DNA of 39,559 nucleotides from a virus. The translations under genes were made by a program, and so were the position numbers. A model generated the notes under the pieces. It worked only from the letters and a program-made list of their open reading frames with translations. It had not been told where the DNA came from and did no database searches. Where the stretch lies: positions 1 to 39,559 of IMG/VR virus record IMGVR_UViG_3300009194_000024; one strand, 5' to 3'. Below are positions 19,369-23,119 of this stretch, piece by piece. The stretch's first letter is position 1; every line of letters begins with the position of its first letter.

Positions 19369-19728
19369 TCAAAACGGTAGGTCTTTATGGCCGGTAGCAA
19401 AGCGTTGTTGCAAGCGAATCTTTAGCACCTGACGCCTCCATGCGCGGCGCTGTGCTTGCGTGTTTCGTATGGCCTTGCTCACCCACCTGATGCGGCTCGC
19501 CCAAATTGCTGACAACCACCGACCTTGGACTTTTTCCCGAGGCCCCTCTTCGTGGCATGTCATGTGCCTTGGCCCCAGTCTCGGGCCAATGGTCACGCGT
19601 TTGTCGAATGTGCATGGCATGGCTTTCTTGCTTGGGTAGCGTCTCACCCTCACTCTCGTCAAAGGCTGCGCCAGATCATCGTCGTCCTGGGTTTCGCTGG
19701 CCAGAGGCATTTCAAAGATGGCTGACAT
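19369..19728 (-). CDS. hypothetical basic protein between RT and excisionase
   Basis: 119 residues from the ATG at 19728, preceded by CAGGAG at 5 bases, overlapping the RT gene end by 17 bases. It begins with an acidic stretch (SETQDDDDLAQP), then becomes strongly basic and rich in Arg and Trp (RVRVRRYPSKKAMP..., GRWLSAIWASRIRWVSKAIRNTQAQRRAWRRQVLKIRLQQRF). I do not recognise a family. The basic, helical second half suggests nucleic-acid binding. Being coupled to the RT gene it could serve the DGR, or it could simply be an early phage gene. Confidence 0.6.
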   Translation of the reverse strand: MSAIFEMPLASETQDDDDLAQPLTRVRVRRYPSKKAMPCTFDKRVTIGPRLGPRHMTCHEEGPREKVQGRWLSAIWASRIRWVSKAIRNTQAQRRAWRRQVLKIRLQQRFATGHKDLPF

Positions 19729-21100
19729 GGTCACTCCTGATTCGGTAACACTTGCTCAAGTCAGCCTTGACACAATGCCCGCGCAGGCGCAGCACGTTGG
19801 CAATGCGGGCTTGCTCGGCATGGCCCTTTGATGCCTGGCGCACAAGGCCCAGGTAACTGTTACCGACCTCGAACAGATCGTCGGCAGGTGTCTCATGCAG
19901 ACGTCTGTACGCATTGCGCAGTGTTCTTGGCCGGGTTGTTCTGCACCAGGGCTTGATAACTTGCCCGACGAAGTCGATGCCGCGGTCGACGGGCTGCAAG
20001 ATGGTTTTGCTGGGGTTGAGCCCCAAGCTCAAGCGCTCTGGCAAGAAGTCAGTCACGTCGCGCAGCACATGGTTCAGCCACTGGCTGCTTTCATGCACCA
20101 GCACGAAGTCATCGACATACCGAACGTAGTGCGGCGCCTTCAGTGTGTGCTTGACACGCTTGTCGAGCACGTCCAGCAGCACGTTGGCAAAGAACTGCGA
20201 CGACAGGTTGCCAATGGGCAGCCCGTGGTCATCGGGCGCATTGAAGAGGCTCTTGTGTGGCGGCACCAGGCGCAACAGTTGCGCGTTGCCCCTCACCTCC
20301 ACGTCGCCCCGTGGGTCGTGCATCAGCACCGTGTGGGCCAGCCTGAGCCACCAGGGCTCGGTGATGCGCCTGGCCAGCAATTCGAACACCACATGCTTGT
20401 TGATTGAAACGAAGAAGTTGGCCAGGTCGCACTTCAGGTAGTGCGCTGGCTTGCTCCAGTTGTGTGTCACGCTTCGCACCTGGTGCTCTAGGCGCTTGGC
20501 TGCGTACAGCGTGCCCCTGCCGGGGATGCACGCACAGCTATCAGCCGTGAATGCGTTGTGAAATCGCTCCATCACCTGGTTGTAGAGCAGGCGATGGACG
20601 ATGCGGTCGCGTATGTCTGCGGCCCACACCTCACGTGGTTTGGGTCGGGTGATCACGAAGCAGATGGATCTGCCTGGTTGATACTCTCCGCTGATCAATT
20701 CATCGTGTAGGTCGCACAGGTTGCGCTCGGCCTTGGCCTCAAACACGGATGCGCTTTTGCTGCTGCGCTTTGATCTGAGGCAGTCTATGTAGGCTGCCAC
20801 CAGCTTATCGAACAGGTCAGGATCTGCGGACAACTCGGGCGCGCAGCTCAGAACTCTTGTTGTTGTTGTTCTGGTTGCCGTTGTTGAAGTTCTGATACCA
20901 CGCGTTGTTGGACGAGTACTGCGATTGTTCGCGCTATCTACGTCACCATGGCGAGGGCTTCCGCCGATCACTGTGGCGACTGCACCAGACCAGCCAGGTG
21001 CTTGCCCTGCGGTATCTGCGGTGTGCATGGCGGTGCCCTTGTGAGGCAGCGGCGCGACCAGATTCAATATGGGCACGGGCATGAGAGCCTTGACTGTCAT
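19712..21100 (-). CDS. DGR reverse transcriptase
   Basis: 462 residues from the ATG at 21100. Copies template-repeat RNA into adenine-mutagenised cDNA for transfer into the variable repeats. RT motifs: YLKCDLANFFVSINK (first catalytic Asp, about 225), GLPIGNLSSQ (about 293-302, the DGR-type version of motif 4, where retroviruses have QGSP), and YVRYVDDFVL with the YVDD active site (about 328-331), then GLNPSKTILQPVDRGIDFVGQ. The ATG overlaps the avd stop (ATGA) and has AGGAGG eight bases before it, so it is the best-supported start. This adds ~100 residues that run through the template repeat in a frame different from the target genes. An unmarked start after the repeat (e.g. GTG 20800) would give a 362-residue protein nearer the usual size. 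Confidence 0.9.
   Translation of the reverse strand: MTVKALMPVPILNLVAPLPHKGTAMHTADTAGQAPGWSGAVATVIGGSPRHGDVDSANNRSTRPTTRGIRTSTTATRTTTTRVLSCAPELSADPDLFDKLVAAYIDCLRSKRSSKSASVFEAKAERNLCDLHDELISGEYQPGRSICFVITRPKPREVWAADIRDRIVHRLLYNQVMERFHNAFTADSCACIPGRGTLYAAKRLEHQVRSVTHNWSKPAHYLKCDLANFFVSINKHVVFELLARRITEPWWLRLAHTVLMHDPRGDVEVRGNAQLLRLVPPHKSLFNAPDDHGLPIGNLSSQFFANVLLDVLDKRVKHTLKAPHYVRYVDDFVLVHESSQWLNHVLRDVTDFLPERLSLGLNPSKTILQPVDRGIDFVGQVIKPWCRTTRPRTLRNAYRRLHETPADDLFEVGNSYLGLVRQASKGHAEQARIANVLRLRGHCVKADLSKCYRIRSDHVSHL
20825..20923 (-). repeat. DGR template repeat (TR)
   Basis: 99 bp aligned without gaps to both variable repeats. Read on the minus strand in the target frame it encodes SQYSSNNAWYQNFNNGNQ, then four Asn and KSSELRARVVR. 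Ten AAC codons make up the variable positions, the codon best suited to adenine mutagenesis because no substitution at its first two bases gives a stop. The first 31 bases on the plus strand (GC-rich, invariant) are the initiation-of-mutagenic-homing-like end. The match with VR1 extends to 20822. Confidence 0.95.
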
Positions 21101-21462
21101 GCTACAGGCCTCCTGTCGGCTGATTTTTTGAGCCATCCACCGCCTTGCTTGCCAATGCTGTCGAGCAACTGGATCGATGCAGACCACACCTTCGGCGAGA
21201 TGTGCCTGCTGTCATGCGAAGCCCTGAAAAGCACCGTGAGTGTTCTTTGGTGCTTGAGCAGTGCATTGATGTTGCTCACTCGCTCGTTGCCCTTGGTGGC
21301 GTTGGCCAGGGCCATGAGGTCGAGCATTTCAACGCAGTGATGACTGATCTTGTCGCCCATGTGACGCTTGACGCCGCGCGGCATTTGCTCTTGCGCCTTG
21401 ATGGCCAACGAAAGCAACTGCACGCCTGTGCGGTGTATTGGTAGATCGGAGTGGATGGCCAT
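21097..21462 (-). CDS. avd: DGR accessory variability determinant (Avd-like)
   Basis: 121 residues from the ATG at 21462. Avd forms a positively charged four-helix-bundle pentamer that binds the RT and template RNA and is needed for retrohoming in well-studied DGRs. The opening SDLPIHRTGVQLLSLAIKAQEQMPRGVKRHMGDKISHHCVEMLDLMALANATKG has the family pattern (PI-x-K/R-x-x-x-LL, PR-x-x-KR-x-x-G-x-K/R-I, CVE-x-L). Four helices are predictable and the protein is basic. It sits between the VR1 gene and the template repeat, the same place as in the Bordetella phage BPP-1 cassette. No clear ribosome-binding site; translation may be coupled to the target gene upstream. Confidence 0.85.
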   Translation of the reverse strand: MAIHSDLPIHRTGVQLLSLAIKAQEQMPRGVKRHMGDKISHHCVEMLDLMALANATKGNERVSNINALLKHQRTLTVLFRASHDSRHISPKVWSASIQLLDSIGKQGGGWLKKSADRRPVA

Positions 21463-21480
21463 GATCAAAGGATCAAAGGA

Positions 21481-21936
21481 TTAAGCGGGCAATCTGCGGA
21501 CAACTCGGGCGCGCAGCTCAGAACTCTTGTTGACGCGGTTCTGGTAGCCGTAGTAGAAGTCCTGATACCACGCGTTGAGGGACGAGTACTGCGTGTTGGA
21601 CCAGTAGGCTTCACCCTTGAACAGGTGCTTGGCGTACTTGAACAAGATGGCTTGCTCCACTCGGTCTGGCAAATCGCCGCCCTGCTCTTTTGCCCAGCGC
21701 ATCTGGGTGTCCCAGTCGGCCTCGTCGTTGTCGCCGTCGAGTACGGTCAGGTGGTACTTGGTCTTGCCGTCATCGGCAACGAGTGTCGCAATCCACGTCT
21801 CGCCGGGCAGCAGCTCGGGGGCTGTCAGCTCGACTGGGAAGATGTTAGGCAGTGTTGGCTTGGATTCGTAGGCGGCGATCAGGTCATTGACCTGCTGTTG
21901 CGCGGCCTTGATTTGCTCAAGAGTCACTTGTTGCAT
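21481..21936 (-). CDS. DGR target protein 1 (DUF1566/C-type-lectin-like)
   Basis: 151 residues from the ATG at 21936 (GGAG seven bases before). The C-terminal ~45 residues come from variable repeat 1: AYWSNTQYSSLNAWYQDFYYGYQNRVNKSSELRARVVRRLPA. The YWSSTQ...A...F...GYQ...RARVVR pattern is the conserved core of DUF1566-like, formylglycine/C-type-lectin-type folds used as DGR targets. The N-terminal part is a helix (LEQIKAAQQQVNDLIAAYESKP) and a compact beta domain (ETWIATLVADDGKTKYHLTVLDGD). It has no signal peptide or membrane segment. Variable residues are surface-exposed in this fold and would make a ligand-binding face. The natural ligand is unknown. Confidence 0.85.
   Translation of the reverse strand: MQQVTLEQIKAAQQQVNDLIAAYESKPTLPNIFPVELTAPELLPGETWIATLVADDGKTKYHLTVLDGDNDEADWDTQMRWAKEQGGDLPDRVEQAILFKYAKHLFKGEAYWSNTQYSSLNAWYQDFYYGYQNRVNKSSELRARVVRRLPA
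21495..21593 (-). repeat. DGR variable repeat 1 (VR1)
   Basis: Aligns without gaps to the template repeat with 10 substitutions, all at template adenines on the coding strand: two in the first AAC codon, one each in four further AAC codons, two each in two of the last AAC codons. Non-adenine positions are all identical. Confidence 0.95.
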
Positions 21937-21967
21937 GTGCTTGCTCCGTGATTAAAGGATTGAAGGA

Positions 21968-22573
21968 TCAATCGATCAGTTGAATCGTGCGGACAACTCG
22001 GGCGCGCAGCTCAGAACTCTTGTCGTCGTCGCTCTGGTAGCCGTGGCTGAAGTACTGAAACCACGCGTTGAGGGACGAGTACTGCGTGCTGGACCAGTAC
22101 AGCGCCTCCTCAAAGGCCTGCGGCCCACCCTCCTGGAAGTCTTGTGCAGACGTCTGCACCACCGGGTTGTGGGCATACGGGTAGCCTGGTGGCTCGCTGC
22201 TGGGGTTGTCACCATCGCGGAAGTACCCACCAGTCTGGTAGGTTGTAGGTTTGAGGTGGCGGTATGCCAGCTCAAGCACATCGCGCGCGGGGATAGCCCA
22301 GTCGCTGAACCCGGCAATGCGCAAGCCAGTGGCCCATTGGGCAAGCGGGCTGCCATCCTCTGCCATGGCCACGGTGTTGGCCAGGCTGTCGTTGTAGCTG
22401 GTGGCGCTGATGATGTCGGTGAACTTGGGGTGCCATACCATCTCGGTTTCGCCCGCGTCTTTCGGTGCCCAGATGGCGGCGCAGAGGATCTGGTTAACTC
22501 GCACCAGGCCACCGAAGTGGCCACCTTCGGCCTCGATGAATGCGCCGAGCGCTGGGAGGTTGTCTTTCTTCAT
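21968..22573 (-). CDS. DGR target protein 2 (DUF1566/C-type-lectin-like)
   Basis: 201 residues from the ATG at 22573 (AAAGGAG upstream). The C-terminus holds variable repeat 2: LYWSSTQYSSLNAWFQYFSHGYQSDDDKSSELRARVVRTIQ. The preceding ~150 residues (GGHFGGLVRVNQILCAAIWAPKDAGE, WATGLRIAGFSDWAIPARDVLELAYRHLKP) form a full DUF1566-type domain, with FSDWAIPARDVLEL matching the family's W-x-L/I-P-x-R-x-E-L motif. No signal peptide. It is the first DGR gene in the operon, and both target genes end with the same kind of repeat and share a 22-bp 3' flank, so they probably arose by duplication around the repeat. Confidence 0.85.
   Translation of the reverse strand: MKKDNLPALGAFIEAEGGHFGGLVRVNQILCAAIWAPKDAGETEMVWHPKFTDIISATSYNDSLANTVAMAEDGSPLAQWATGLRIAGFSDWAIPARDVLELAYRHLKPTTYQTGGYFRDGDNPSSEPPGYPYAHNPVVQTSAQDFQEGGPQAFEEALYWSSTQYSSLNAWFQYFSHGYQSDDDKSSELRARVVRTIQLID
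21988..22086 (-). repeat. DGR variable repeat 2 (VR2)
   Basis: Aligns without gaps to the template repeat with 11 substitutions, all at template adenines: nine AAC codons are affected across the variable block except where unchanged, plus one TAT to TTT. No change falls at a non-adenine position. Confidence 0.95.
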
Positions 22574-22594
22574 GGGGTGCTCCTTTCTGAGCTT

Positions 22595-23119
22595 TCAGGC
22601 AGATGCCCGTTTGTGTTCACGTGACAGCTTCTTGACGTTGTCGACAACGTCCTGGCACGTGCTGTTGGTTGGGAGGTTGAGGTGGGAGGTGATTTCCTGC
22701 ATGGCGCGTAGAAGGGCTATCTTTTGCGCGTCGCCATAAGCGTTGGTGCGTCGCTCACCGACATGCATGATGATTTCTCTGGGTGGACGAAGGACGACCT
22801 CACCTGGCAGCGGCACTTGCGGAAACCTGTCGACAGGTCGGGGGTTGTGCCCTGTTGGCGCTCGCCCCGTCATGCGTGGCCTGGTGGCCAGCAACCACAG
22901 GTAGGCGTCTCGGGCGTCCGTGTCGCTGCCGAAGTACAGCGTCACGGTGCCTTTGCCCTCGTAGCTGGCGGTCCATGCCACGTGCGGGTGCTCCATGGGG
23001 TTGTTGTCAGGCACTGGCACGCTTAGGCGCTTGATGAAAGCGGCCAGCAAGGCCATGTAGCCAATCAACAGCAGCGCGGCTAGGGCCATCAGGTTGGGTA
23101 CGGTCATCAGGTCAGCCAT
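22595..23119 (-). CDS. hypothetical membrane-anchored protein
   Basis: 174 residues; the ATG at 23119 has GGAGG seven bases before. Residues ~8-30 (PNLMALAALLLIGYMALLAAFI) form one transmembrane helix, followed by a soluble part with HVAWTASYEGKGTVTLYFGSDTDARDAYLWLLATRP and a C-terminal helical region (QKIALLRAMQEITSHLNLPTN). No family recognised. It lies just upstream of the DGR target genes in the same operon, so it could present or anchor a partner at the inner membrane, but nothing in the sequence proves a link. Confidence 0.65.
   Translation of the reverse strand: MADLMTVPNLMALAALLLIGYMALLAAFIKRLSVPVPDNNPMEHPHVAWTASYEGKGTVTLYFGSDTDARDAYLWLLATRPRMTGRAPTGHNPRPVDRFPQVPLPGEVVLRPPREIIMHVGERRTNAYGDAQKIALLRAMQEITSHLNLPTNSTCQDVVDNVKKLSREHKRASA

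Follow-up and report, generated by a model that had tools for sequence, protein, structure and literature searches.

Reverse transcriptase translation probably runs across a structured RNA and the template repeat in an RT-15-group diversity-generating retroelement

Introduction

The template repeat (TR) of a diversity-generating retroelement (DGR) is usually described as non-coding. The nearest described cases are the Pseudoalteromonas phages ACA1/ACA2 and the Vibrio phages VHML/VP58.5, for which a single sentence in an earlier report presents the TR as an N-terminal extension of the reverse transcriptase (RT), without a selection test (PMC10612066). There the stop codon of avd overlaps the ATG of RT and the TR is translated as the RT N-terminus, an arrangement that the locus studied here resembles. 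Overlap of the TR with annotated RT open reading frames also makes up structural group 3 of DiGReF (PMC3521204), a class that rests on annotation without a test of translation, whereas the present case was tested by comparison. Bordetella phage BPP-1 shares with our locus the order avd-TR-RT, adenine-specific mutagenesis and a homologous RT (8ub7), and differs from it in having its RT start 144 nt downstream of the TR. The structured RNA of BPP-1 (RF03022; seen in locus L168) lies 3' of the TR, whereas the one in our locus, RT-15, lies 5' of it. This BPP-1 spacer RNA serves both to recruit bRT-Avd and to prime the synthesis of cDNA (PMC12875486).

Here we analysed a viral DNA of 39,559 nucleotides (IMG/VR record IMGVR_UViG_3300009194_000024, positions 1 to 39,559; hereafter the window), together with relatives of its RT.

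Results

Judged by its genes and repeats, the minus-strand cassette of the window is a complete avd-type DGR (Table 1). RT and Avd are both of DGR type (phrog_1423 and phrog_3206), and structure 8ub7, the bRT of BPP-1, matches the RT with an E value of 1.1e-29. The TR/VR repeat is present in three copies in the window. Along 20923-20822 the TR and VR1 differ by 10 mismatches, all at TR adenines; every difference listed between the TR and VR2 over the same positions likewise falls at a TR adenine, and the two VRs also diverge from one another at A positions of the template.

Table 1. Features of the DGR cassette in the window.
Feature	Position	Strand	Remarks
RT ORF	19712..21100	-	462 aa from avd-overlapping ATG; frame, Pfam RVT_1 3.8e-15, phrog_1423 2.5e-108
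RT stop codon	19712-19714	-	
RT start codon (s1)	21098..21100	-	ATGA overlap with avd stop; inside RT-15 P1 stem
Shine-Dalgarno AGGAGG	21109..21114	-	8 nt upstream of ATG 21100
RT-15 structured RNA (Rfam RF03018)	20922..21113	-	5' of TR, abutting; 173.4 bits; covariation in class N loci
Template repeat (TR)	20822..20923	-	RT codons in a frame other than that of the target genes
avd	21097..21468	-	phrog_3206 1.6e-17; Pfam bAvd 1.2e-07, under Pfam's cut-off
avd stop TGA	21099-21097	-	overlaps RT start as ATGA
Target gene 1	21481..21936	-	Lcl_C-like, match under Pfam's cut-off
VR1	21492..21593	-	repeat copy
Target gene 2	21968..22573	-	Lcl_C-like, match under Pfam's cut-off
VR2	21988..22086	-	repeat copy

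An initial annotation of this DNA had proposed that the RT frame is open from the ATG at 21100 through the whole TR, and that this ATG overlaps the avd stop and follows a perfect AGGAGG. All of this was confirmed, the upstream limit of the open frame being a stop at 21214. In the RT frame the TR is translated as RSTRPTTRGIRTSTTATRTTTTR; the target genes use the neighbouring frame across it, in agreement with the earlier claim of two different frames, and the third frame contains a stop. The same annotation saw no good start after the TR. Indeed GTG 20800 is the sole in-frame ATG, GTG or TTG between the TR and the RT core of the window, and a start there would cut the first RT helix (model residues 96-110); a further in-frame codon, TTG 20833, is located within the TR. 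At the 3' end of the TR, GTCCGCAGA (20823-20831) is almost invariant across the group and is possibly part of the homing initiation site.

For the comparison we assembled 160 relatives from viral contigs and genomes and further phage records. TRs were located by adenine-specific mismatch in 160 of 164 loci, with nearly all mismatches at A, and the non-redundant set comprised 130 representatives. Loci with no in-frame ATG inside or after the TR were placed in class N (58 loci, window included) and those with an in-frame ATG inside the TR in class I (58 loci), a definition that is independent of the frame further upstream. A subset of 28 class I loci served as the unlocked set. Numbers of changes are minimum changes on the RT-domain tree.

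What the initial annotation had not noticed is that 21113-20922 corresponds to a known structured RNA. Rfam RT-15 (RF03018) matches over its full model (1-192) with a score far above its gathering score of 82, and its 3' end is where the TR begins. The full model was matched in the window and in all 19 tested relatives of this RT group. Base pairing of RT-15 is conserved inside the open reading frame: within class N alone, 88.8% of cells form their pair, and both partners have changed in 34 of 56 pairs, a number reached by none of 500 shuffles. Two-sided changes affect 218 cells, compared with 74 after shuffling and no more than 94 after sliding. Single-sequence folding stability is not unusual (z 0.42) and was set aside as uninformative. 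On the other side of the template, where the TR end lies 20-57 nt from the RT core anchor, no RNA element was detected 3' of the TR and no Phage_DGR match was obtained within 19500-22700. An Sp-like RNA within the 5' portion of the RT coding sequence was also considered and rejected, synonymous divergence being without a dip in the 5' RT codons.

With a known RNA upstream of the TR, the open frame could have been a coincidence. In BPP-1-like controls the ATG of the RT follows the TR at a distance of 140-175 nt, yet 36 of 57 loci have an RT frame that is open across the TR; the offset of the target frame from the RT frame shows a 34/17/6 split. An open frame alone is therefore weak evidence, not beyond chance, and we dropped its length as an argument. 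The register of the frame is more telling. In 127 of 129 non-redundant relatives the TR 3' end stands in one and the same RT frame, its distance to a fixed RT codon being 34-67 nt and varying by multiples of 3, and the TR-to-RT spacing has undergone at least 39 changes on the tree with one frame change. From this pattern it follows that RT translation begins at or before the TR end in this group; the exceptions, L110 and L118, are out of frame and have gained an ATG downstream of the TR.

The register extends upstream of the TR. A conserved RT-15 motif lies in register with the RT, with the frame open between them, in 58/58 class N loci as against 30/58 in class I (Fisher 1e-10), a contrast that is partly clade-structured and for which independent-pairs sign tests on the tree had few informative pairs. 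The length from motif to RT has changed at least 28 times in class N with 0 frame changes, compared with 36 changes and 18 frame changes in class I (p 3e-6, with the same clade structure); for the RT-15 part alone the corresponding figures are 10 and 0 in class N and 26 and 18 in class I. If the frame were free, 28 length changes without a frame change would be expected at (1/3)^28, and the class N register is thus far beyond chance. Stops are absent from the RT frame in class N, whereas the other two frames usually have one. This conservation survey, which the initial annotation had suggested, strongly supports its idea that ribosomes run across the template into the RT. We consider it highly likely, from these comparisons, that in this avd-type, RT-15-group DGR the RT starts at the avd-overlapping ATG and that ribosomes pass RT-15 and the whole TR before reaching the RT domain.

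A start within or just past the TR (TTG 20833 or GTG 20800) would instead make the upstream openness a by-product of high G+C and a conserved RNA. Both codons are present in the window, relatives that have an ATG within the TR apparently use it as their start, and frames open across the TR are common in the BPP-1-like control cassettes with their later start. Such a late start would nevertheless leave unexplained both the class N register and its association with the ATG at s1 described below; in nine class N loci the stretch between TR start and RT core is free of ATG, GTG and TTG, and an RT initiated at GTG 20800 would lack part of helix 96-110. We therefore regard it as very unlikely.

Among the upstream codons, the ATG equivalent to 21100 (s1) is the one that tracks the locked frame, being present in 53/58 class N loci and in 1/28 of the unlocked set (3e-16), and the start proposed by the initial annotation is accordingly the best supported. 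The base preceding the avd TGA is A in 43 of the 58 class N loci and in one of the 28 unlocked loci, nearly all of which have C, T or G. The s1 codon is neither ATG nor GTG in 3/58 class N loci, and the AGGAGG is not conserved, being found among class N in the window and L004 only. Fusion of avd to RT by a -1 frameshift need not be invoked, since an in-frame stop precedes the s1 ATG by 6 nt in L020 and by 15 nt in L046.

Initially we preferred ATG 21028, inside RT-15, which has an SD-like AAGG 8 nt upstream, occurs in 47/58 class N loci and is retained in a few of the loci that lack the s1 ATG; the TR would still be read through from there. This ATG is, however, as common where it could not serve as the RT start (23/28 unlocked loci), with no association to class; it therefore looks like a feature of the RNA, and we dropped it. 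ATG 21082 is found in 44/58 class N and 2/28 unlocked loci, and is tied to s1 by base pairing: in the first stem of RT-15 the ATG at 21100 pairs with the CATG around 21082, CATG being a palindrome. Some class N loci carry a C to T change at the base before the s1 ATG and G to A at its stem partner, so that the pair and the s1 ATG are kept and the 21082 codon becomes ATA. This paired change favours 21100 as the start, and initiation at 21028 or 21082 in its place seems improbable to us.

In-frame stops in close relatives had been named in the initial annotation as evidence that would speak against read-through. None occurs in the window's own clade; in distant loci, such as those of Pseudomonas, they do occur. 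Twelve Pseudomonas-type loci (L115, L117, L129, L135, L143-L145, L147, L148, L150, L156 and L159) carry in their TR both a stop in the RT frame and, no more than 6 nt beyond it, the sequence ATGATG. As an ATG inside the TR follows the stop in 12/12 of these loci, the stops reflect a shifted start and not a contradiction, and translation of the RT in these loci apparently begins within the template itself.

Finally we considered the peptide itself. The ratio pN/pS is 0.74 over the first hairpin, 0.97 over the RT-15 core, 1.04 over the TR, 0.70 from the TR to the RT core and 0.29 in the RT, so that no amino-acid selection is seen over RT-15 and the TR. In the AlphaFold2 model residues 1-71 and 73-90 have a pLDDT below 50, the first helix spans 96-110 and the RT fold sets in at about residue 91-96. 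The leader is Arg/Thr-rich over the TR and is kept throughout class N, as might be expected if it were functional, for example in RNA binding as a basic tail. Against such a function stand the near-neutral pN/pS over RT-15 and the TR, the low pLDDT and the relatives that apparently start inside or after the TR without most of the leader. With both selection and a predicted fold absent we rejected a functional leader peptide, to which we give little credence. Going by these sequence comparisons the leader of about 93 residues is a by-product: openness and register of the frame would be what is selected, not the peptide.

Discussion

By comparative frame lock, the TR of the window appears to lie inside the translated RT N-terminus, as it does in the ACA phages. 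The VHML/ACA-type elements (L238, L242 and close relatives) form a separate DGR clade that reads the TR as RT N-terminus, and we confirmed their layout with the ATGA overlap in L238, L242, VP58.5 and close relatives. TR translation of this type is restricted to close relatives. It differs from the window in several respects. Its TR begins about 10 nt after the ATG, whereas RT-15 intervenes in the window; RT-15 is absent from these elements; and in the ACA/VP58.5 clade the TR is in the target-gene frame (offset 0), whereas in the window it is in the neighbouring frame and not in that of the target genes. TR translation in the VHML/ACA clade is probably of independent origin. The present case is thus set apart from the earlier report of a TR extension by its frame, its RNA element and its clade, and contributes evidence of selection; the priority of our reading is uncertain. 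The BPP-1-type arrangement, a structured spacer RNA between TR and RT with the RT start after it, was found neither in the window nor in its group.

Our results suggest that RT translation is probably coupled to that of avd, through the structured template RNA. The RT start codon has a predicted unpaired probability of 0.02-0.09, and with the codon buried in this way initiation should depend on a ribosome finishing avd. That RT initiation needs such a ribosome and the melting of the first RT-15 stem is a tentative proposal, to which we would give somewhat less than an even chance. During avd translation the ribosome would open the stem that holds the RT start, and the template would be read as mRNA. 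One and the same RNA would then serve in one of two ways, being translated as mRNA or acting, when folded, as an RT-15 and TR template bound by RT-Avd, and folding of RT-15 or binding of RT-Avd could shut off RT translation and free the RNA as template. The initial annotation had already suggested that read-through may couple RT translation to template availability, or limit RT expression.

Binding of RT-Avd could in this way repress its own synthesis. Group II intron proteins bind their own start region, and by analogy self-repression by RT-Avd is plausible. More speculatively, and with slightly greater doubt than over the stem, RT-15 DGRs might constitute a system in which one RNA has two exclusive states, mRNA and RT-Avd-bound template, with built-in autoregulation. 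The RNA control element would lie 5' of the template, on the opposite side from that of BPP-1, implying a different priming of cDNA synthesis.

Rfam catalogues RT-15 as gene/sRNA, whereas in class N it is apparently read by RT codons as well. If our interpretation is correct, an RNA family listed as noncoding doubles as coding sequence at many loci. Synthetic use of RT-15 cassettes would have to preserve both fold and frame, and simple mutants of frame and stem would allow a direct test of the balance between production of template and enzyme.

Relative to the RT core anchor, annotated RT starts in public phage records (L162-L165 and L167) lie anywhere between 219 nt upstream and 57 nt downstream, a scatter which indicates that gene callers disagree on the RT gene. 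The RT of phage QDWS is probably annotated in truncated form. In Bacillus phage BalMu-1 an RNA of another Rfam family, RT-14, lies just 3' of the TR (L240:2795-2938), in a BPP-1-like order.
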